A stretch of 64,000 bases of DNA from Lawsonibacter sp. (GCA_022796195.1 JAAWIE010000005.1:1-64000), one strand, 5' to 3'. Positions 13,620 to 62,345 are shown, counted from the first letter of the stretch. Made by a program: numbers and translations. Notes: generated by a model not told the origin, from the sequence alone.

Positions 13620-13753
13620 AGAGCTGAATTTCCTTTCTGCCAGACTTTTTTCGGTATTGTTGAAACAGTATAGCACAAGAACACAGTTTGGTCAATTTGG
13701 GACGGACGCCCGGGCGAACAGCTTGTATAAAATGGATATTTTCCACAAATAGC

Positions 13754-13777
13754 GGTAAAAAAAACCTCTTTTTTACC
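13754..13777. promoter_or_regulatory. Dyad upstream of the M20-pyrC-symporter-pyrKD cluster
   Basis: GGTAAAAAA-N6-TTTTTTACC, followed by TATAAT at 13804-13809. Confidence 0.4.
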
Positions 13778-13848
13778 ATCTGGTATCGGAAGGCCAAATC
13801 GTATATAATAAACAATTAAAGAAGCAATAGGGAGGGGACATTTTTGCA

Positions 13849-15063
13849 ATGAAACATTCCTTTGAGGACATCCAATACTGTGAGACGCTGTTTAACTGCT
13901 TTTACGATGTAGGCGGTTTGACCAGCGGCGGCGTGACGCGGTTGGGGTACACCGAAATCGAGGACCAGATGCACGAAATCTTTACACGGCTGGGCAAAGA
14001 ACTGGGCTGCGAGAGTGCTCATGACGAGGTGGGCAACACCTTTGTGGGCAGTGCGGCCCGAGACGGCTGTTACTTGATTGGTTCCCATCTGGACTCGGTC
14101 ATCGACGGCGGGCGTTATGACGGTGTGGCCGGTATTATTGCCGGGCTAATGGTTCTGCGCTGGGCCAGAGAAGAGGGATTGAATATTCCCATTCGAGTGG
14201 GAGCTTTCCGCTGTGAGGAGTCCAGCAATTTTGGCTGCTGTACTATTGGAAGCGGACTGGTAACCAGAGAGATTTCCAGAGAAAAAGTGGCGGGACTGGT
14301 ATCTAAGGATGGACAGACCCTGGAATCCATCTTTGCTGGCCGGGGCTACAGTCTGGACCCGCCCCGAATCTCGGGCCTGGCGGGTTACCTGGAACTACAT
14401 ATCGAACAGGGCAAGGTGCTGGAGGAGTCGGGGACCTCGGTGGGTATTGTACAGACCATCGCCGGACCCCGCCGATTCAAGCTCTACCTGCGGGGACTGG
14501 CGGAACACTCAGGCGCTACCCCCATGGCCCTGCGCAGCGACGCTATGTGCGCGGCGGCAGAATTGATTTTGGAGATTGAACGTCTGGGCAACAAAGAGGC
14601 CGCCTATCAGACGGTGGCTACCGTGGGCGTAGTGAACAACAAGCCCAATGTGATGAACGTGATCCCTGGCGAGGTAGAACTGGGTGTGGATATCCGGGGC
14701 ATTGACCGGACCAGCCTGGACCGCATTGAGCTGGAAATGAAAGATGCGGCTAAGCGCATCTGCTTCCGGCGGAATATTGAGTATCTGGAGGAGAAGCTTA
14801 GCGAGTTTCCGCCAGTGAACATGAGCGGAGACGTACAGATGGGGCTGGAGCGGGCGGCTCAGAGGCTGGGAATCAGCAGCAGGAGGATGATGAGCGGGGC
14901 AGGACATGACGCGATGGCTTTCCCGGCCCTGTGCGAAACGGGGATGGTCTTTATTCCCTGTCAGAAGGGCATCTCCCACAACCGGGCAGAGTTTGCCAGC
15001 CTGTCCAGCATCTGCGACGGGGCCCGAGTAATTTATGAGTATCTGAAAGGAGCGGCGGAATGA
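13849..15063 (+). CDS. M20-family Zn-dependent N-carbamoyl-amino-acid / ureido hydrolase (hydantoinase/carbamoylase family)
   Basis: GSHLDSV, CEESSNFG, ELHIEQGKVLE, SGAGHDAM and GISHNRAEF motifs. Confidence 0.9.
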   Translation: MKHSFEDIQYCETLFNCFYDVGGLTSGGVTRLGYTEIEDQMHEIFTRLGKELGCESAHDEVGNTFVGSAARDGCYLIGSHLDSVIDGGRYDGVAGIIAGLMVLRWAREEGLNIPIRVGAFRCEESSNFGCCTIGSGLVTREISREKVAGLVSKDGQTLESIFAGRGYSLDPPRISGLAGYLELHIEQGKVLEESGTSVGIVQTIAGPRRFKLYLRGLAEHSGATPMALRSDAMCAAAELILEIERLGNKEAAYQTVATVGVVNNKPNVMNVIPGEVELGVDIRGIDRTSLDRIELEMKDAAKRICFRRNIEYLEEKLSEFPPVNMSGDVQMGLERAAQRLGISSRRMMSGAGHDAMAFPALCETGMVFIPCQKGISHNRAEFASLSSICDGARVIYEYLKGAAE

Positions 15064-16331
15064 TCCTGATTAAAAACGGACGTGTGGTAGACCCTGCCTC
15101 CGGGACCGACGAGGCGCTGGATCTTCTTTTGGAGGACGGCAGGATCAAGGCCCTGGGCAAGTTTTCCCGGTCGGAGAGCTATGAGCAGGTGATTGACGCC
15201 GCAGGTAAGATTGTAGCCCCGGGATTGGTGGATATCCATGTTCATTTCCGAGACCCCGGCTTGACCTATAAAGAGGATATCGTTACCGGTTCCGCCGCGG
15301 CGGCGGCGGGAGGTTTTACCACTGTGATCTGTATGGCGAATACCAAGCCGGTGGTGGACTCGGTGGACACTCTGTCCGATCTGCGCCGCAGAGCGGAAGA
15401 ACTGCCGGTCCATGTGCTCAACGCGGCGGCGGTGACAAAGGGCCTCAAGGGGGAAGAGCTTACCGACATGAAAGCCCTGCGGGCGGCAGGCGCCGCCGGA
15501 TTCACCGACGACGGCATCCCCATTGCCAGCAGTGCCCTGCTGTTTGAGGCTATGAAGATGGTCCAAGAGTTGGATGTGCCCATCAGCCTCCACGAGGAGG
15601 ACCCGGCCCTGATTGCCAGCGCCGGAGTGAATCAGGGAACGGTTTCCCGCCAGCTGGGCGTGGGCGGAGCACCGGCCCTGGCTGAGGAATCCTTGATTGC
15701 CCGGGACTGTGCACTGGCTCTGCGTACCGGGGCCAAGGTGGATATTCAGCACATAAGCAGCGGCGTTTCGGTGGACATCGTCCGGTCTATGAAGCGGCTG
15801 GGCGGCCGGATTTTTGCTGAGGTGACCCCGCAGCATTTCTCCTTGACGCAGCAGGCGGTGCTGGAGCGGGGGGCGCTGGCCAAGGTCAATCCGCCTCTGC
15901 GGGAAGAGGCCGACCGCTACGCCCTGATTCAAGGGTTAAAGGACGGTACAATCGACTTTATCGCCACCGACCATGCCCCCCACAGCCGGGAGGAGAAGGC
16001 GAAGGAGCTGAACCAGGCGCCCAGCGGCATGATTGGCCTGGAGACCGCTCTGGCCCTTGGCATTACCAATCTGGTGCGTAAGGGACACCTCACTATGCTC
16101 CAACTGCTGGAGAAGATGACCGTCAATCCCGCCCGGTTTTATAATTTGGACTGCGGAACGCTGAAGGAGGGGGCGGCCGCCGATCTGGTGATTTTTGATG
16201 AGCGGGAACGGTGGACTGTGACAGAAGATGGCTTCCGTTCCAAATCGTGCAATTCCCCCTTTATTGGGATGGAGTTGTATGGAAAGGTACACTATACCAT
16301 CTGCGGCGGACGCGTGGTTTACGAGGCATAA
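15060..16331 (+). CDS. pyrC: Dihydroorotase, class I
   Basis: APGLVDIHVHFRDPGLTYKEDI, ICMANTKPVVDS and ATDHAPHSREEK motifs; ATGA overlap with the upstream gene. Confidence 0.93.
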   Translation: MILIKNGRVVDPASGTDEALDLLLEDGRIKALGKFSRSESYEQVIDAAGKIVAPGLVDIHVHFRDPGLTYKEDIVTGSAAAAAGGFTTVICMANTKPVVDSVDTLSDLRRRAEELPVHVLNAAAVTKGLKGEELTDMKALRAAGAAGFTDDGIPIASSALLFEAMKMVQELDVPISLHEEDPALIASAGVNQGTVSRQLGVGGAPALAEESLIARDCALALRTGAKVDIQHISSGVSVDIVRSMKRLGGRIFAEVTPQHFSLTQQAVLERGALAKVNPPLREEADRYALIQGLKDGTIDFIATDHAPHSREEKAKELNQAPSGMIGLETALALGITNLVRKGHLTMLQLLEKMTVNPARFYNLDCGTLKEGAAADLVIFDERERWTVTEDGFRSKSCNSPFIGMELYGKVHYTICGGRVVYEA

Positions 16332-16391
16332 GGCAAACGGCCCGGCGGGGCGGCTTGCCCTGACTGGAGAGATAGAAGGAGAACAAAATAT

Positions 16392-17732
16392 ATGAAGAAA
16401 GCAGATACCACCTCCCTGGCAAAGAAGATGGCGATTGCCCTTGTATGCGGTCTGGCGGCTGGCTTGATCATGATGCTGGTCCGGGAATCCCTCACCAGTT
16501 CCGGCGGCGGAGCAACTTGGACGATGATAAACAACATTCTGTTCCAGGATATCACACAGGCTGGGGCGGAGCGTGCGTTGGGTATTTTTTACATCATCGG
16601 GCAGCTGTTTATCAAGTCTTTGCAGTTGGTAATCGTACCTATGGTGTTTACCTCCATTACTTTGGCGATCGGGCAGATCTCCGATACCAGGACACTGGGA
16701 CGGATCTCGGTCAAGACCATAGGCATTTTCCTGCTGTGCTCCTTCTTTGCCCTGGTGCTGGCCTGTGGGGTTGGTATTTTGTGCTATGATATGGGGATGT
16801 TTAGTGCCCAGGTGGAGGGATTGACCGGCGCAGCCGGTTCCACTGGCTCCAACCCTTTAAACGTGGTGCTTAATGTGGTGCCCAACAACATTGGTGCCGC
16901 CTTCAGCAGTAATACCGCAGTGCTGGCAGTTGTTTTTCTGGCGGTGTCGCTGGGCCTGTGCATGAACGCTATGCCCGCAGAGAAGACCTCCACCTTGAAA
17001 AAGATTATCACTGAAATAAACGATGTGGTAGTGGTGTTCCTAAACTATGTGGTCACAAAATTCGGACCCTTTGCCATCTTTGTTCTCTTGACCCGCACCT
17101 TTGCCAGCTATGGAATCAACTATCTGCGCCCCGCCCTAGCCTATGTGGTGGTCACGGTGGTTCTCCTTTTGCTGTTCCTGCTGGTGGGGTATCCTCTGTT
17201 TGTAGTGGTTTTGGCCAAGCAGAATCCTATCACGTTTATTAAGAAGATTTCCAACGTGGCGATTTTCGGCTTTTCCACCTCCTCCAGCGCGGCGACCCTG
17301 CCCCTGAACCAGAAGACCTGTACAGAGGGCTTCGGCGTGGACGAGACCATCGCCTCCTTTGTCCTGCCACTGGGTATGACGATCAATATGAATGGTACCG
17401 CCATTATGCAGGTGGTTGCGACTGTGTTTATCGCCGGATGCGCAGGCTACAGCGTCACCTTTCCACAGCTGGTAGTGATCGCCCTGCTGGCTTTGATTGC
17501 CTCTGCCGGCACCCCCGCTGCTCCTGGCGCGGGCGCGGTGATTCTGTTTACCATTTTGTCCGGCGTGGGCTTTACCAACGACGCTGCTCTGCTGGCGTAT
17601 GCCTTGATTCTGGCTATCAACCGGCCAATCGAGATGCTGGTTACCTCGCTCAATGTGGTGGGTGACGCGGTGACCAGTATATGCGTGGCCAGAAGCGAAG
17701 GAAAATTGGACGAGAGCAAATATAACGCATAG
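16392..17732 (+). CDS. Dicarboxylate/amino-acid:cation symporter (DAACS, GltPh fold)
   Basis: TSSSAATLPLN, NMNGTAIMQ, ASAGTPAAPGAG and TSLNVVGD motifs. Confidence 0.92.
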   Translation: MKKADTTSLAKKMAIALVCGLAAGLIMMLVRESLTSSGGGATWTMINNILFQDITQAGAERALGIFYIIGQLFIKSLQLVIVPMVFTSITLAIGQISDTRTLGRISVKTIGIFLLCSFFALVLACGVGILCYDMGMFSAQVEGLTGAAGSTGSNPLNVVLNVVPNNIGAAFSSNTAVLAVVFLAVSLGLCMNAMPAEKTSTLKKIITEINDVVVVFLNYVVTKFGPFAIFVLLTRTFASYGINYLRPALAYVVVTVVLLLLFLLVGYPLFVVVLAKQNPITFIKKISNVAIFGFSTSSSAATLPLNQKTCTEGFGVDETIASFVLPLGMTINMNGTAIMQVVATVFIAGCAGYSVTFPQLVVIALLALIASAGTPAAPGAGAVILFTILSGVGFTNDAALLAYALILAINRPIEMLVTSLNVVGDAVTSICVARSEGKLDESKYNA

Positions 17733-17742
17733 CGACAGCCGC

Positions 17743-17772
17743 CATTCCCGCCCCTATTTAGGGGCGGGAATG
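17743..17772. repeat. Perfect 14-bp inverted repeat between symporter and pyrK
   Basis: CATTCCCGCCCCTA-TT-TAGGGGCGGGAATG without a following T-run. Confidence 0.75.
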
Positions 17773-17797
17773 CGAGATTAGAACGCAGGAGGGTATT

Positions 17798-18508
17798 ATG
17801 GCAAAAATATTGGAAAACCGCAGGGTGGCGGACGACTTCTGCTTTATGAAGGTGGAAGCGGACAACGATGCAAAGATGGGACAGTTCTACATGCTCCGGG
17901 CCTGGGACACATATCCGGTTCTCTCCCGGCCCATCAGTGTGTTTGACTCCGACGGAACAACAGTCAGCTTTTTATACAAGGTGGTGGGTCAGGGAACGGA
18001 AATATTCCAAAACCTCCAGCCTGGGGGCGAGATCAAAATAGACGGTCCCCATGGAAACGGGTTCCCAGATGTGCAAGGAAAAATTGCACTGGTAGGGGGC
18101 GGCGTGGGCATTGCCCCGCTGTACCTGACGGCAAAGGAGCTGAAAAAAGCCCACCCGGACAGCACAGTAGATGTGTTTTTGGGCTTCTCCGGTCAGCCTA
18201 TGCTGGTGGAGGAGTATGAGAAATCGGCGGACAGTGTCACAGTGAATGTGGGAGGCTTTGTCACAGATGATATCGACCCCACCCAATACGACGTTATCAT
18301 GACCTGCGGGCCGGAGGTTATGATGCGGGTGCTGTATCAGAAATGCGTAGATTCTGAGGCGAAAGCCAAGGTCTATGTGTCTATGGAAAACCGTATGGCC
18401 TGCGGCATCGGGGCCTGTCTGGTGTGTACCTGCAAGACGAAGAGCGGCAATAAGCGGGCCTGCAAGGACGGCCCCGTAATGGAAGGCTGGGAGGTGTTCG
18501 GCGAATGA
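17798..18508 (+). CDS. pyrK: Dihydroorotate dehydrogenase electron transfer subunit
   Basis: FAD/NAD-binding reductase domain and [2Fe-2S] motif [14 protein letters not shown]...RACKDGPV. Confidence 0.93.
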
Positions 18509-19410
18509 GTAAGCGGTTGGAGACGGTTTTTGCCGGTGTGACCTTTAAAAATCCGGTGGCGCTGGCCTCGGGGACCTGCGGCTTCGGTAAGGAGTTTAAC
18601 GAGTATTTCGACATTCAAAAGCTGGGCGGCTTGTGCTCCAAGGGGCTCACGCTGAACCCCTGCCCAGGCAACGACGGCATCCGGGTGTGGGAGACCCCCA
18701 GCGGCGTTATGAACAGCGTGGGGATGGAGAACCCCGGTGTGCGCCATTTTATCGAGTGCGATCTGGAGCGAATGAATTCTTTGGACCTGGTGAACATCGT
18801 CAATCTGGGTGGACACAGTGAAGAGGACTACTTAGAAGGCGTGGCCCTGCTCAATGAGCATGAGCTGGACCTATTGGAACTGAACATCTCCTGCCCTAAC
18901 ACAAAGGCAGGGTGCATGAGTTTCGGGATTCAGACCGAGACGGCCCGGGATATTGTACGGAAGGTGCGGGCGGTCTGCAAACACAAGCTGGTAGTGAAGC
19001 TCTCGCCCAACGCGGAGAATATTACCGCTCTGGCCCGGGCCTGTGAGGAGGAGGGCGCGGACGGCCTTTCTTTGACCAATACCTATCAGGCACTGGCGAT
19101 TGACTTGAAAAAACGCAGGCCGGTTTTCCAAAATGTCTATGCTGGACTGTCCGGTCCAGCTATTAAACCCATCTCTCTGCGCATGGTCCATCAGGTGGCC
19201 CACACAGTATCCATCCCGGTTATGGGGATCGGCGGTATTACCACTTGGCGGGATGCGATTGAGTTTATCATGGCAGGGGCAGCGGTGGTGCAGATCGGTG
19301 CGGCCTCCTTTATGGACCCAACTGCGGCACTGGATGTGATTGATGGTATGGAGCGGTATCTAGCGGAAAACAGAATTACAAATATATCGGAAATCCGGGG
19401 AATTATCTGA
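18505..19410 (+). CDS. pyrD: Dihydroorotate dehydrogenase B (NAD+-type), catalytic subunit
   Basis: [28 protein letters not shown] and IPVMGIGGI motifs; ATGA overlap with pyrK. Confidence 0.94.
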
Positions 19411-19443
19411 GCGGCCGCCCCGTTTATGGAAGGAGCTGACAAC

Positions 19444-20160
19444 ATGCTGAAAGGTAAGAAGGTTATCATTTTTGATATGGATGGTACTCTGATTGACTCC
19501 GTAGGCGTCTGGAATGACGTGGACCGGGCCCTGATTCAGCGCATTCGCACGGACGGCGGCACAGACACCCCTGACGTCCAGGTACAACGGGACGAGGCCC
19601 TGCGGCAGTTCAGCAAGTCCGCAAATCCCTATGTGGAGTATTGCGGCTTATTGAAGAATAAATATGGTAGTGCCCTGAGTCCAGAGGAAATCCACACCCT
19701 GCGCTATGACATTGCCCAGCATTTTTTGAAAAATGTTGTCGGCTACAAACCGGATGCGGATGTATTTCTTCGCCGCCTGAAAGAGTCGGGCTATACGCTG
19801 GTAATTGCCACCACCACCAAGCGGGGCAATATGGACATTTACCGGACGCAAAATGCACAGATGATGGCCAAAGCAAATATTGATGATCTGTTTACCCTGA
19901 TTTACACCCGAGAAGACGTCCGGGAAATCAAACCAAATCCAGAGATTTACCTCCGGGTGATGCAGGAACTGAACGCCTTACCGGAAGAGTGCCTGATTTT
20001 TGAAGACTCTTTGATCGGGATTGAAGCGGCCAAACGTGCGGGCGTTCAGTCGGTGGCGGTGTACGACCGGTATTCCGATGGGGAACGGGAGCAGATCAAT
20101 GCTCTGGCGGATTATCAGCTGGAGAGCTATACGAAATTGCTGGAACAGGAAGCGTTTTGA
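19444..20160 (+). CDS. HAD family hydrolase
   Basis: IIFDMDGTLIDS, IATTTKR and IFEDSLIGIEAAKRAG motifs. Confidence 0.9.
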   Translation: MLKGKKVIIFDMDGTLIDSVGVWNDVDRALIQRIRTDGGTDTPDVQVQRDEALRQFSKSANPYVEYCGLLKNKYGSALSPEEIHTLRYDIAQHFLKNVVGYKPDADVFLRRLKESGYTLVIATTTKRGNMDIYRTQNAQMMAKANIDDLFTLIYTREDVREIKPNPEIYLRVMQELNALPEECLIFEDSLIGIEAAKRAGVQSVAVYDRYSDGEREQINALADYQLESYTKLLEQEAF

Positions 20161-22965: not shown

Positions 22966-24768
22966 GTGAATATGAACTATGAGGAGCTGTATCTTACAGG
23001 ATTTATCCATGAGATGGCCGATGTGTCCAGCGGTCCCCATTCCAGAAAGTTTTGCTTTGTCCTTGGGGCAGGGGCGTCCAGAACTTCGGGGATTAAGTCG
23101 GGGCAGGAGCTGGTCAATATTTGGGACAAAGAACTTAAAGAGCGGAATTTAGATGAGTACCAGCGATGGAAACAGGAGTTTGGGATTACAGACGAAAATA
23201 GGTACGGTTTCTACAGTAAATATTACGAAAAACGCTTTGCCCGGGAACCGAGCGACGGATATAATTATCTGGAAAAGCTCATGGAACATGCAAGACCCAG
23301 CACAGGATACGTCATGCTCTCTTACTTGTTGACCCAGACCAGCCATAATGTGGTCATTACCACAAATTTTGACCATATGGTGGAAGATGCGGTTAACTAC
23401 TATGCTCAAAATATTCCGCTGGTGGTTGGGCATGAGGCGCTGGCCCATTATATCTCTCAGCAGGCAGCTAGGCCGACCGTGATAAAAATACACCGGGATT
23501 TGCTGTTTGATCCCAAAAACAGCACCAAGGAGGTTAGAGAACTCCACAAGAACTGGGAAAATGCCCTGGATTATGTCTTTTCCAGGTATCACCCTATTTT
23601 TATCGGATATGCGGGCAACGATGAAAGCTTGATGGGGTTTTTGACTGCAAATGGCCAGAAATTCCAAGATAAAACCTGGAAGTATCCTTACTGGATGCTA
23701 TATGGAACAGACCCGCTGGAAGGGCAGATTCTGGAATTTCTGGAAAAGGCCGGAGGGTACTTTGTCCGGCATAACGGTTTTGATGAGACGCTGTATTTAA
23801 TGGGGGACGCGCTTGGCTATAAGGTGCCCACTAAGGAGAGGTTTCTGGCCAATGCAGAGGAACGCTATCAGATGCTGACCGATTCGATTGACGCATTTAC
23901 AGCGAAAGAGAAGCAGTCTCGAGAGGAGAGCGAGCCTTTGCGTACTCCCGATACCCCGGAACCGGATGTGGAAGAGACCTCGGTCAGCATGGAAGAGACC
24001 CCGATTAGTGAGGCAATTCGCCGGGTGACCGGTCAGTCGGAACAGCAGAAGCTGTATAGTGAATCCATCTCTCTGTATGATGTGAACAAGTTTACAGAGG
24101 CGGCAGAAATTCAAAACAAGCTGGTACAGGAAAATCCGGAAAATGCCAGATATCACTACAGCTATGGCCGGACGCTGCATAAAATGAGCTGCTTTGACGC
24201 TGCCGCCGCTGAAATGCAGCGCGCAATTGAGCGGGAGCCCGGGCAGGCCCTGTACCATTGGAATCTTGGATATATCCTGAGAGATATAGAAGACCGCTTA
24301 GAGGAAGCCTTGTCCGCGATGCAAGAGGCGATTGAAATTGATCCTGAGGACGGGTTTTATCATTCACAGGCGAGTATTGTTTTGCTGCAAATGGGACGCA
24401 ATGAAGAGGCATTAAAGGAAGTTCAGACCGCGATTGCGCTGGAACCGGATCACGCATTTTATTATGACAACCTGGGTGATGTGTATGGCGAGTTAGGCCC
24501 TGAGCAGGCGTTGCTGGAGGCCAGACAAAAGGCCATAGAACTACAGCCGGATGAGGCGTGGTATTATTTCAAATATGGCAAGTGCTTGTTTGATTTGGGT
24601 CGTTATGCGCAGGCGCACGATCAAGTGCAAAAGGCAGTGGAGCTTGAGCCGGGTGATAAGTTTTACCACCGCTATTTTGGAAAAGTGCTGGAAGCGATGG
24701 GCCGGCATGAAGAGGCGGCCAGTGAGAGACGGAAAGCGAATGTGCCGCAGGCCGCTTCCCGTGGATAG
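22966..24768 (+). CDS. SIR2-like (SIR2_2-type) domain protein with C-terminal TPR repeats
   Basis: FVLGAGASRTSGIKSG, ITTNFDHMVED, IKIHRDL and PIFIGYAGND in the N-terminal half; several TPR units (e.g. ALYHWNLGYILRDIEDRLEEALSAMQEAIEIDPED) in the C-terminal half. Confidence 0.85.
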   Translation: MNMNYEELYLTGFIHEMADVSSGPHSRKFCFVLGAGASRTSGIKSGQELVNIWDKELKERNLDEYQRWKQEFGITDENRYGFYSKYYEKRFAREPSDGYNYLEKLMEHARPSTGYVMLSYLLTQTSHNVVITTNFDHMVEDAVNYYAQNIPLVVGHEALAHYISQQAARPTVIKIHRDLLFDPKNSTKEVRELHKNWENALDYVFSRYHPIFIGYAGNDESLMGFLTANGQKFQDKTWKYPYWMLYGTDPLEGQILEFLEKAGGYFVRHNGFDETLYLMGDALGYKVPTKERFLANAEERYQMLTDSIDAFTAKEKQSREESEPLRTPDTPEPDVEETSVSMEETPISEAIRRVTGQSEQQKLYSESISLYDVNKFTEAAEIQNKLVQENPENARYHYSYGRTLHKMSCFDAAAAEMQRAIEREPGQALYHWNLGYILRDIEDRLEEALSAMQEAIEIDPEDGFYHSQASIVLLQMGRNEEALKEVQTAIALEPDHAFYYDNLGDVYGELGPEQALLEARQKAIELQPDEAWYYFKYGKCLFDLGRYAQAHDQVQKAVELEPGDKFYHRYFGKVLEAMGRHEEAASERRKANVPQAASRG

Positions 24769-58416: not shown

Positions 58417-61062
58417 TTACATCCCCTTCAGCTGAGATTCCAGTTTGGATACCAGTTCGGTGAGTTGGGCGGCCCGGGCCTTTTCCGCCTCCACAACCTG
58501 GGCAGGGGCTTTGTTGACGAAACCGGGGTTGTTCAGCTTGGTGTTCAGCTTCTCCAGCTCAGCAGACTGTTTTTTCAGCTCCTTTTCTACCCGGGCTTTC
58601 TCCTTTTCCAGATCAACCAGTTCACCCAGGGGGATGAACAGCTGAGCCGCATGGGTCACCACAGCTACGTTTCCAGCGGCGTCGGGGGCGGCGTCCACCG
58701 GGACAATCTCCACATCGCTGGCGTAGGCCAGCTTCTTCAGGAAGGGAACACCCAGCGTGAAAATCTCCCGCTCTCCGGTGGCCGCAGTGAGGTGCGCTTT
58801 TTTGGAGGGAGGCACGTTCATCTCGCTGCGCCGGGCACGGATGGCTCGGATGGCGTCCATAATCAACTCCATAGCTTTTTCTTCTGCGGGGAAGTCCATT
58901 TCGCCGCTCGCCACCGGCCAGCTCTGGAGCATGAGGAAACTGCCGTCCTCCACATCCCCGCTGTGTGGCAGGGCCTGCCAGATTTCTTCTGTAATAAAGG
59001 GCATGAAGGGGTGGAGCAGCTTGAGCATCTGGGTCAGCACATAACACAGCACCTGCTGGGCCCGGACCTTGCTGTCCTCATCTTCGCCCTGGAGACGGGT
59101 CTTGGTCAGTTCGATATACCAGTCGCAGTAGTCGTCCCAGATGAAGTCGTAAATCTTCTGAGCCGCTACGCCCAGCTCATATCGGTCCATGTTTTCAGTG
59201 ATCTCCGAAATGGCCCGGTTCAGCTTGGACAAGATCCACTTGTCTTCCAGTTCCAGCTTCCCTGGCAGGGTACATTGGTCAATGGTCAGGTTCATCATCA
59301 GGAACCGGCTGGCGTTCCAGATCTTGTTGGCGAAGTTGCGCATAGCCTCGCACCGCTCGGTGTAGAAGCGCATATCGTTGCCGGGGCTGTTACCCGTGAC
59401 CAGATTGAACCGCAGGGCATCCGCGCCGTACTTGTCGGCGATTTCCAGGGGGTCGATGCCATTGCCCAAAGACTTGGACATCTTCCGGCCCTTGTCATCC
59501 CGGACAAGGCCATGGATGAAGACCGTGTGGAAAGGAGGTTTGCCTGTGTGTTCGCAGGCGGAGAAAATCATGCGGGCCACCCAGAAGAAGATGATGTCGT
59601 AGCCCGTGACCAGCACGTCGGTGGGGTAGTAGTACTGGAAGTCCTCGGTGTTGTCCGGCCAGCCCAGAGTGGAGAAGGGCCAAAGGGCGGAGGAAAACCA
59701 GGTATCCAGCACGTCATCCTCCTGCCGGATCTTCTTGGAATGACAGTGGCAGCATTCTGTGGGGTCGCTTTCAGAGACGGTAATTTTGCCGCAGTCCTCG
59801 CAGGTCCAGGCGGGAATCCGGTGCCCCCACCATAGCTGCCGGGAGATGCACCAGTCCCGGACGTTTTCCATCCAGTTGGTATAGGTTTTGGAGAAGCGGT
59901 CGGGGACGAACTTGGTCTCTCCCTCGTTGACCACCCGCAGAGCCTCTTTGGCCAGGGGCTCCATTTTGACAAACCACTGGGCGGAAATCAGCGGTTCCAC
60001 ATCGCTGTGGCAGCGGGAACAGGTGCCAACATTGTGCTGGTGGGCCTCCACCTTTACCAGATAGCCCTGCTCCTCCAGGTCGGCCACAATGGCTTTCCGG
60101 GCCTCGTACCGGTCCATGCCCGAGTAGCGGCCATAGCCCTCTACTACTACGCCGTGGTCGTCCAGCACCCGGATGGTTTCCAGATTCTGACGCAGGCCCA
60201 CCTCAAAGTCGTTGGGGTCGTGGGCCGGAGTCATCTTCACGCAGCCGGTGCCGAACTCCATGTCCACATATTCGTCCGCTACAATGGGCATTTCCCGGCC
60301 CACCAGGGGCAGAATGCACTTTTTACCCACAATATCAGCATACCGCCCATCGGCGGGGTTGACGGCCACACCGGTGTCGCCCAGCATAGTCTCGGGTCGG
60401 GTGGTGGCTACAATCACGTACCGGTCTGGCTCCCCCTGGATGGGGTAGCGGATGTGCCACAGGTTTCCGGGCTTGTCCTGATATTCTACCTCTACATCGG
60501 ACAGAGCCGTGACACAGTGGGGACACCAGTTGATAATCCGGGAACCCTTATAAATCAGGTCCTTCTCATAGAGGGAGACAAACACATGCCGCACCGCACG
60601 GCTCAGGCCCTCGTCCATGGTGAAGCGGGAACGCTCCCAGTCGCAGGAGACGCCCATTTTTTTCTGCTGTTCCACAATGCGGGCCCCGTATTTGTTTTTC
60701 CAGTCCCATACCCGTTCCAAAAATTTCTCCCGGCCCAGGTCGTAGCGGCTCAGCCCCTCGTTTTCCCGGAGGTTTTCCTCTACCTTGGCTTGGGTAGCAA
60801 TGCCCGCATGGTCACAGCCAGGGACCCACAGTGCCGCACAGCCCTGCATTCGCTTGAAGCGGATCAGGATATCTTGAAGGGTGCAGTCCATGGCGTGGCC
60901 CATGTGGAGCTGTCCCGTCACATTGGGAGGCGGCATCACAATGGTAAAGGGTTTCTTCTTCGGGTCCCGGCGGCCCCGGAAGCAGCCGTTTTCTTCCCAT
61001 TTTTGATAAATACGGCCCTCTGCCTCCTGGGGTTCATAAATTTTTGGCAGTTCTTTTTTCAT
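58417..61062 (-). CDS. valS: Valyl-tRNA synthetase
   Basis: [47 protein letters not shown]-terminal coiled coil. Confidence 0.97.
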
Positions 61063-61091
61063 GATTATCCTCCTTGCATGTTCCGTCTGGT

Positions 61092-62072
61092 TCAGGACGC
61101 GGCTCCGGCATCTGACAAAACGGCGCTCCATTGCTCCGGTGTCACATAGTCGGAATAGTAGCCGTCAGCCCCCCAGCTGGTCGATATCATGTCCAGCAGA
61201 CGGTTTACAGTGTGTAAATATATCTTGCAGCCATATTGGCGCAAAATTTCACTATTTTCCTGGCTGATTCTGGAGAAATCCATGGTCACAACCGGGATAT
61301 CCCGTTCCTGACAGAAGGAGCCGATTTCATGGTAGTCAGGATTTGCGATTTGATACAAGGTAAAAATCCAGTTGACTGCGGGAACTTCCTCCTTGACCCA
61401 GCCATACATCTCCTGGTGATAGATCTGAATGATGATCCGGTCCCATAGAGAGGGGTCGCCGGTCTCCTCAACGGCCTGAGCCAAAACCTGCATCTGTGCC
61501 CGTACATCCGCCTCTCCGGTGTCCTTGCTGTCGGTTACCAGATAGCAGTCGGGGTATACCCGCATCAGGGTCAGCAGACGTTGAATGTCCAGCGGAGTAT
61601 AGTGGAAACAGATGGGTGTGTTGACAAAGGTGTCCCAATCCATCACGCCGACGTATTTTTGCTCCAGATTGTAATAGGAAATCTGATCCCAGTCATGGCG
61701 GGCCACCAGTTTTCCGTCCGAGGTCAGCTGAAGGTCCACCTCAAATACCCGCTGGCCCTCCAGATAACTTTGGAGAAATGCTTCTAGACTGTTGGTCTCT
61801 CGTCTTCCATCTACCGTACCCAGCGCGTGGGCCACGATGGGAATTTCAGTCCAATGCTTATGGGAGTCTGTCCGGGGAGCCAAGGCGGTCATAGCGGAGG
61901 CGACTGCCCCTGCCGCCTGGTCCGCCGCTAGACTCTGGAACGGTTCGCCGCCGCTGTGGTCCAAGGCATCCGGCAGTTTCAGCAGAACTGCGGTGATGAT
62001 CAGAATACAAGCCGAGACACACACCAGCCATTTCCACGGTATTCGGTTGTGCGCTTGTCTGGCCCCTCTCAT
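61092..62072 (-). CDS. Membrane-anchored glycerophosphodiester phosphodiesterase-like protein
   Basis: N-terminal [28 protein letters not shown]...[20 protein letters not shown] resembles the GDPD HR/EVD signature. Confidence 0.72.
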
Positions 62073-62105: not shown

Positions 62106-62345
62106 AAAAAAACGCCCTGAGCCAATCCGGCTCAGGGCGAATCAAGTCCGCGGTACCACCTGAGTTTCCCCAATTTGGGGACACTTTATTCCTTCTGTAA
62201 CGGGAAGTCCCGCCGCCCCTTACTCTATAATTCGGGGGCAGGGCGCAAAAGCCACCTTCGCCGGCTGGGACTGAGGGCTTGCACCGTCCGCCCTCTCTCT
62301 GCATGTCCAAAACCGGGTACTCCTCTTCTGCATTGCCTTTTCGCG
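62106..62345 (-). promoter_or_regulatory. T-box leader
   Basis: Minus strand AGGTGGTACCGCGG at 62161-62148; terminator CGCCCTGAGCC-N5-GGCTCAGGGCG plus 7 U; competing CTCAGG/CCTGAG antiterminator; upstream GAAGAGGAGTA and AGAGAGGGC elements. Confidence 0.93.

Follow-up and report, generated by a model that had tools for sequence, protein, structure and literature searches.

Does a cluster of dihydroorotase and dihydroorotate dehydrogenase (DHODH) genes in Lawsonibacter sp., headed by the gene of an amidohydrolase, make pyrimidines, degrade orotate, or do both? Annotation as pyrC or pyrD does not by itself give the direction of flux. Orotate fermentation by Clostridium oroticum was described biochemically in the 1950s, and the textbook pathway leads from orotate through dihydroorotate and N-carbamoyl-aspartate to aspartate; to our knowledge, no gene has so far been assigned to its ureidosuccinase step (EC 3.5.1.7). 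We analyzed a stretch of 64,000 nucleotides (termed the window) that carries the cluster, its source assembly, which is a MAG of 2.68 Mb (91% complete, 7.9% contamination), and the genomes of related and distant bacteria.

Gene content of the locus

As originally predicted, the block comprises five open reading frames on the plus strand, with ATGA overlaps between the first two genes (15060-15063) and between the last two (18505-18508). The first gene (13849-15063) encodes an M20-family carbamoyl-amino-acid amidohydrolase, a candidate N-carbamoyl-L-aspartate amidohydrolase (ureidosuccinase). The second (15060-16331) encodes PyrC, which scores 637 bits against the NF006839 equivalog (cut-off 576) and retains all six metal or catalytic residues when aligned to Aquifex dihydroorotase (3d6n), features that mark it by sequence as a type I dihydroorotase. 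Then follow a DAACS/SDF symporter of the DctA/GltP family (16392-17732; PF00375, 309 bits), which is the proposed orotate importer, PyrK (17798-18508; NF000798, 306 bits, cut-off 219), and PyrD (18505-19410; NF005574, 379 bits, cut-off 269). The active-site SCPN of PyrD aligns with that of Lactococcus DHODB (1ep1), and the FAD and 2Fe-2S cysteine motifs of PyrK align with 5ksw_B. With the catalytic cysteine and both cofactor motifs in place, the pair is assigned as a class 1B DHODH, in which PyrD would be the catalytic subunit and PyrK the NAD-linked FAD/2Fe-2S electron-transfer subunit.

A HAD-IA hydrolase gene (19426-20160, plus strand; HAD_2, PF13419) begins 15 nt 3' of pyrD and is probably the sixth gene of the unit. 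Homologs with 76% and 80% identity lie directly 3' of pyrD at two other loci (L022 and L028), and the gene co-occurs with the operon in three genomes. On the 5' side, the upstream region (13677-13848, plus strand), read directly from the sequence as promoter and RBS, separates the M20 gene from a divergent neighbour with a weak RNase M5 match, and an RBS-like GGGAGGGG precedes the M20 ATG. Unlike in most other carriers, no PucR gene adjoins the window operon, and no Rfam feature was found within the block.

The lack of pyrB, pyrE and pyrF noted originally was borne out, as tblastn of the window with PyrB, PyrE and PyrF gave no match; pyrB and pyrE likewise had none on the contig from which the window derives. 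The longest ORF among the window ORFs listed, 904 aa, is too short for an intact CarB. Elsewhere in the window, a T-box leader (RF00230, 128 bits; 62130-62342, minus strand) lies upstream of an aminoacyl-tRNA synthetase-like ORF (58417-61131), and a single protein (22966-24768) combines an N-terminal SIR2-like domain with C-terminal TPR repeats, an architecture that occurs in some anti-phage proteins.

Candidate substrate of the M20 enzyme

The M20 protein belongs to the hydantase/carbamoylase subfamily TIGR01879 (336 bits, cut-off 204), and its score reached the cut-off of no named substrate-level equivalog in NCBIfam. Across 34 M20 orthologs, H80, D91, E123, E124, H184 and H377, presumably metal or catalytic residues, are invariant, as are N270 and R283, which we assign from family knowledge to the carboxylate site. 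R209 and an RCEESS motif are likewise invariant, the motif having partly served to find the loci in the first place; R209 could bind the β-carboxylate of carbamoyl-aspartate. On its family and these residues, the protein is a candidate for the hydrolysis of N-carbamoyl-L-aspartate.

Conservation of the operon

At a threshold of E ≤ 1e-60, the M20 gene was found in none of 200 genomes sampled from the same family, three genus-mates among them, and within this family the operon is rare and patchy. Across the class, 5 other genomes of 391 searched have the gene, and the three with at least 48% identity carry M20-PyrC-PyrK-PyrD in every neighbourhood. A GTDB-wide scan with a four-sequence M20 alignment retrieved 35 named loci; it rests on short conserved peptides and samples the family, rather than exhausting it. 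Operon carriers belong to the Bacillota, Synergistota and Spirochaetota. PyrC lies directly 3' of M20 in 32 of the 35 loci, overlapping it in many, and the order M20-PyrC-...-PyrK-PyrD recurs in 22, figures that count loci and not independent events. Because so many M20-derived loci repeat it, the M20-PyrC-(transporter)-PyrK-PyrD order is far beyond chance and represents a real conserved operon; conservation of the gene order was one of the checks proposed with the original prediction.

The transporter class varies among loci (DAACS, SSS, MFS or ABC). Between PyrC and PyrK, a DAACS gene is found in 7 loci (one being a truncated contig) and an SSS gene in 5; other loci have as their carrier a divergent DAACS (Faecalicatena orotica, Mediterraneibacter), a downstream SSS, an MFS protein or an ABC system. 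A PucR-family regulator lies upstream of the block in many loci, and some carriers have hydantoinase- or allantoinase-like genes adjoining M20. Aspartase follows PyrD in six loci (L023, L024, L030, L034, L051 and L055), accompanied by malic enzyme in five of them, and fumarase-like genes occur at L018/L055, which are one genome fetched twice. The appended aspartase and malic enzyme would form the expected outlet for aspartate, which supports a catabolic function.

F. orotica, which we take to be the current name of C. oroticum, holds an orthologous block (locus L042), with identities of 63% for M20, 63% for PyrC, 64% for PyrK and 68% for PyrD, and a divergent DAACS gene (67%). An aspartase is present in its genome, and a separate contig carries pyrC-pyrF-pyrK-pyrD-pyrE.

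Several loci show further features. PyrDK is missing from ten M20-PyrC loci, of which at least two are cut off by the end of the contig. Such pairs are seen at L032, L033, L035, L036-L038, L040 and L041, with a class-III aminotransferase and a hydantoinase-like gene also at L032 and an iron-hydrogenase-domain protein at L036; they possibly represent another way of feeding the same hydrolysis. Beside the operon in F. orotica (L042:5395-6909) and at one other locus (L031:7077-8591), a PucR-type helix-turn-helix region, scoring below the Pfam cut-off, is fused to a C-terminal HAD domain, making these proteins unusual possible regulators. We considered whether the window HAD hydrolase corresponds to the HAD domain of the F. 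orotica fusion and rejected this, the similarity being at superfamily level. Genes that resemble, by eye, proline reductase components lie 5' of the operon at L055/L018, which may point to an amino-acid-fermentation island.

Origin of the operon genes

In the PyrD tree, F. orotica, Synergistaceae, Spirochaetaceae and the window fall together in a supported clade of operon PyrDs (99/95), and the biosynthetic PyrDs of genus-mates lie outside it. Since three loci (L049, L052 and L055) have a different PyrD type at the same operon position, PyrDK was recruited at least twice. The PyrC tree is split similarly, with some non-operon PyrCs (Lachnospiraceae, Anaerosphaera) inside the operon-type clade. 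The window genes cluster with those of Pseudoflavonifractor, Lawsonibacter and an uncultured Firmicutes. The genomic site of the operon in our genome differs from that in Pseudoflavonifractor sp. 60, as could be expected after horizontal transfer or relocation. Bin contamination is an unlikely source of the operon, because the left flank of the window matches genus-mates (73-80%) and related genomes (89-90%) and the GC content is uniform.

Pyrimidine genes elsewhere in the genome

The window PyrD is the sole DHODH, of any class, in its own assembly, although at 91% completeness and 7.9% contamination the lack of a second pyrD is not absolute. In two genus-mates (G129 and G039) and in strain 1xD42-67, a pyrC-pyrF-...-pyrK-pyrD locus is followed by a small ORF and then by a phosphoglycerate-mutase/acetyltransferase-like gene. 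On contig C25 of our assembly, as in Pseudoflavonifractor sp. 60, the flanking genes are kept without pyrK, pyrD or the small ORF between them; judged by this comparison, the ancestral biosynthetic pyrK-pyrD pair has been deleted from the pyrC-pyrF locus. Strain 1xD42-67 carries M20-PyrC without the operon PyrDK and retains the biosynthetic pyrK-pyrD.

The pyrF-linked dihydroorotase on C25 (PyrC2; L008:10131-11405) carries D153G, H180C and D305N (Aquifex dihydroorotase numbering, counted on the 3d6n alignment), and has thereby lost three of the six residues, at positions that we presume to be metal ligands. Its orthologs in Pseudoflavonifractor sp. 60, strain 1xD42-67 and both genus-mates are intact at these residues, and PyrC2 looks catalytically dead. 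With a dN/dS of ~0.14, indicative of purifying selection, relaxed selection is not evident; therefore, the active site may have been lost only lately, or PyrC2 may persist as a structural pseudo-dihydroorotase.

Of the remaining genes, pyrE lies on contig C45 and pyrF on C25. No pyrB match over cut-off was found in the assembly, where at 91% completeness absence is not absolute, and a search through its CorC neighbour gave just a partial paralog. Should pyrB prove to be really lacking, the organism would have to import orotate and convert it through PyrE and PyrF. As no aspartase over cut-off was found in this genome either, aspartate would be used directly or transaminated.

The search for a second pyrC/pyrD/pyrK set, proposed with the original prediction, thus yielded PyrC2 and no second DHODH. 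The finding that had been named as evidence against catabolism, namely that the operon holds the only pyrC and pyrDK genes of a pyrimidine prototroph, is partly the case in this genome, and a dual catabolic and anabolic role is therefore the better reading here. The prediction of an orotate-catabolic operon stands, with the conserved order and the F. orotica block behind it, whereas enzymes running simply opposite to biosynthesis are unsupported in this organism, given the sole DHODH, the deleted pyrK-pyrD and the substituted PyrC2.

Other carriers provide parallels. Mediterraneibacter massiliensis and one MAG (G592, in which pyrF adjoins pyrE) have pyrB and pyrE, and their PyrC and PyrD are of the operon type only; a single operon-type PyrC and PyrD are also found in a further genome (G593). 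The PyrC search used here would miss dihydroorotases of other types. By gene content, two kinds of carrier can be told apart. Those of the first kind have a biosynthetic set in addition to a copy dedicated to catabolism; those of the second kind have one set, which in a prototroph must work both ways. A second PyrD, located in a pyrF/pyrK/pyrD locus, is encoded by F. orotica, An14, C. clostridioforme and R. sufflavum.

Proposed pathway and alternative readings

We propose that the DAACS symporter imports orotate, that PyrDK would reduce it to dihydroorotate with NADH, that PyrC would hydrolyse dihydroorotate to N-carbamoyl-L-aspartate, and that the M20 enzyme would hydrolyse the latter irreversibly to L-aspartate, CO2 and NH3. 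The class 1B DHODH and dihydroorotase reactions are reversible, while hydrolysis of the carbamoyl group is irreversible; the M20 step would therefore pull the reversible steps in the catabolic direction and set the direction of the pathway. In this organism, with the native pyrK-pyrD pair lost and the pyrF-linked PyrC seemingly inactive, we infer that UMP synthesis also draws on the operon PyrDK for its DHODH step and probably on the operon PyrC for its dihydroorotase step. Comparative evidence strongly supports orotate catabolism by the conserved operon, and we put the probability of the whole reading, an orotate-utilisation operon whose PyrDK and probably PyrC also serve UMP synthesis here, at about three in four. 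A more specific scenario, in which an acquired catabolic operon took over pyrimidine synthesis and left one amphibolic PyrC/PyrDK set with M20 as its switch, is tentative, and we would give it somewhat less than even odds. If true, this would be an unusual pathway takeover, with a catabolic set standing in for the native enzymes of pyrimidine synthesis.

A purely catabolic operon, with PyrDK and PyrC working in reverse only, would place the biosynthetic set in the unassembled part of the genome. The MAG is 91% complete, and the four carriers with a second PyrD have just such an arrangement; however, our pyrC-pyrF locus runs uninterrupted, minus pyrK-pyrD, into the conserved genes that follow, Pseudoflavonifractor sp. 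60 shares this loss, and the assembly offers no other DHODH of any class, so we regard this reading as unlikely. A sole DHODH would also suit a displaced biosynthetic cluster that makes orotate for UMP, with M20 scavenging N-carbamoyl amino acids or ureides, as would the single operon-type PyrC and PyrD of M. massiliensis and the two similar genomes. We consider such a displacement less probable still: M20 and PyrC keep side by side in nearly all loci, we saw none of pyrB, pyrE and pyrF in the cluster, four genomes hold it besides a second biosynthetic PyrD, and aspartase or malic enzyme is appended in several loci.

Breakdown of ureides or hydantoins, with M20 as an allantoate amidohydrolase or general L-carbamoylase and PyrC as a hydantoinase, would accord with the best NCBIfam label for M20, allantoate amidohydrolase (subfamily), a match below its cut-off, and with the allantoinase-like gene that adjoins M20 in F. 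orotica and scores at its own cut-off. We rejected it on profile cut-offs and the presence of PyrDK, and rate it as highly improbable: M20 is far under the AllC cut-off (TIGR03176; 229 bits, cut-off 598), PyrC scores above the cut-off of the dihydroorotase equivalog, allantoin breakdown has no use for PyrDK, and no allantoinase adjoins the window block.

The operon supplies candidate genes for the classical C. oroticum pathway, including the ureidosuccinase step, and makes orotate breakdown predictable in gut bacteria, where milk and host metabolism could provide orotate as a substrate. Our search of the open-access literature turned up no account of the operon, and the word "ureidosuccinase" had no match in the part searched; within that literature, the pathway is known, and the operon itself, the assignment of the M20 gene and the exchange of native biosynthetic genes for operon ones seem to be new.

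Comparison with known systems

The predicted steps are the same as those of C. oroticum orotate fermentation, and the F. orotica genome holds the orthologous block. As expected for catabolism of this type, a class 1B DHODH, a dihydroorotase and a candidate carbamoyl-aspartate hydrolase are encoded together. A separate biosynthetic DHODH is present in F. orotica. In contrast to F. orotica, the window has its DAACS gene inside the operon and no adjacent PucR gene, and its assembly yielded neither an aspartase nor a second PyrD.

The window PyrDK has both subunits and the active-site and cofactor motifs in common with Lactococcus DHODB (1ep1) and with the C. oroticum class 1B DHODH (Argyrou et al. 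2000, as cited in PMC9326563), and differs from them in its proposed reductive as well as oxidative operation. For transport, PMC13328217 (citing Baker et al. 1996) describes the import of orotate by E. coli DctA, a DAACS carrier; this precedent and the family of the window symporter are the grounds on which we propose it as an orotate importer. In the DctA salvage of E. coli and Salmonella (Baker et al. 1996), a carrier of the same family delivers orotate to UMP via PyrE and PyrF, whereas the window operon is proposed to degrade it. Finally, the M20 protein shares its family, metal ligands and carboxylate-binding Asn and Arg with the L-carbamoylases and allantoate amidohydrolases (3n5f, 1z2l), a comparison set that also included ErtE, an N-carbamyl-L-glutamate amidohydrolase, and it represents a distinct subfamily with RCEESS where the characterised members have an EEG motif.
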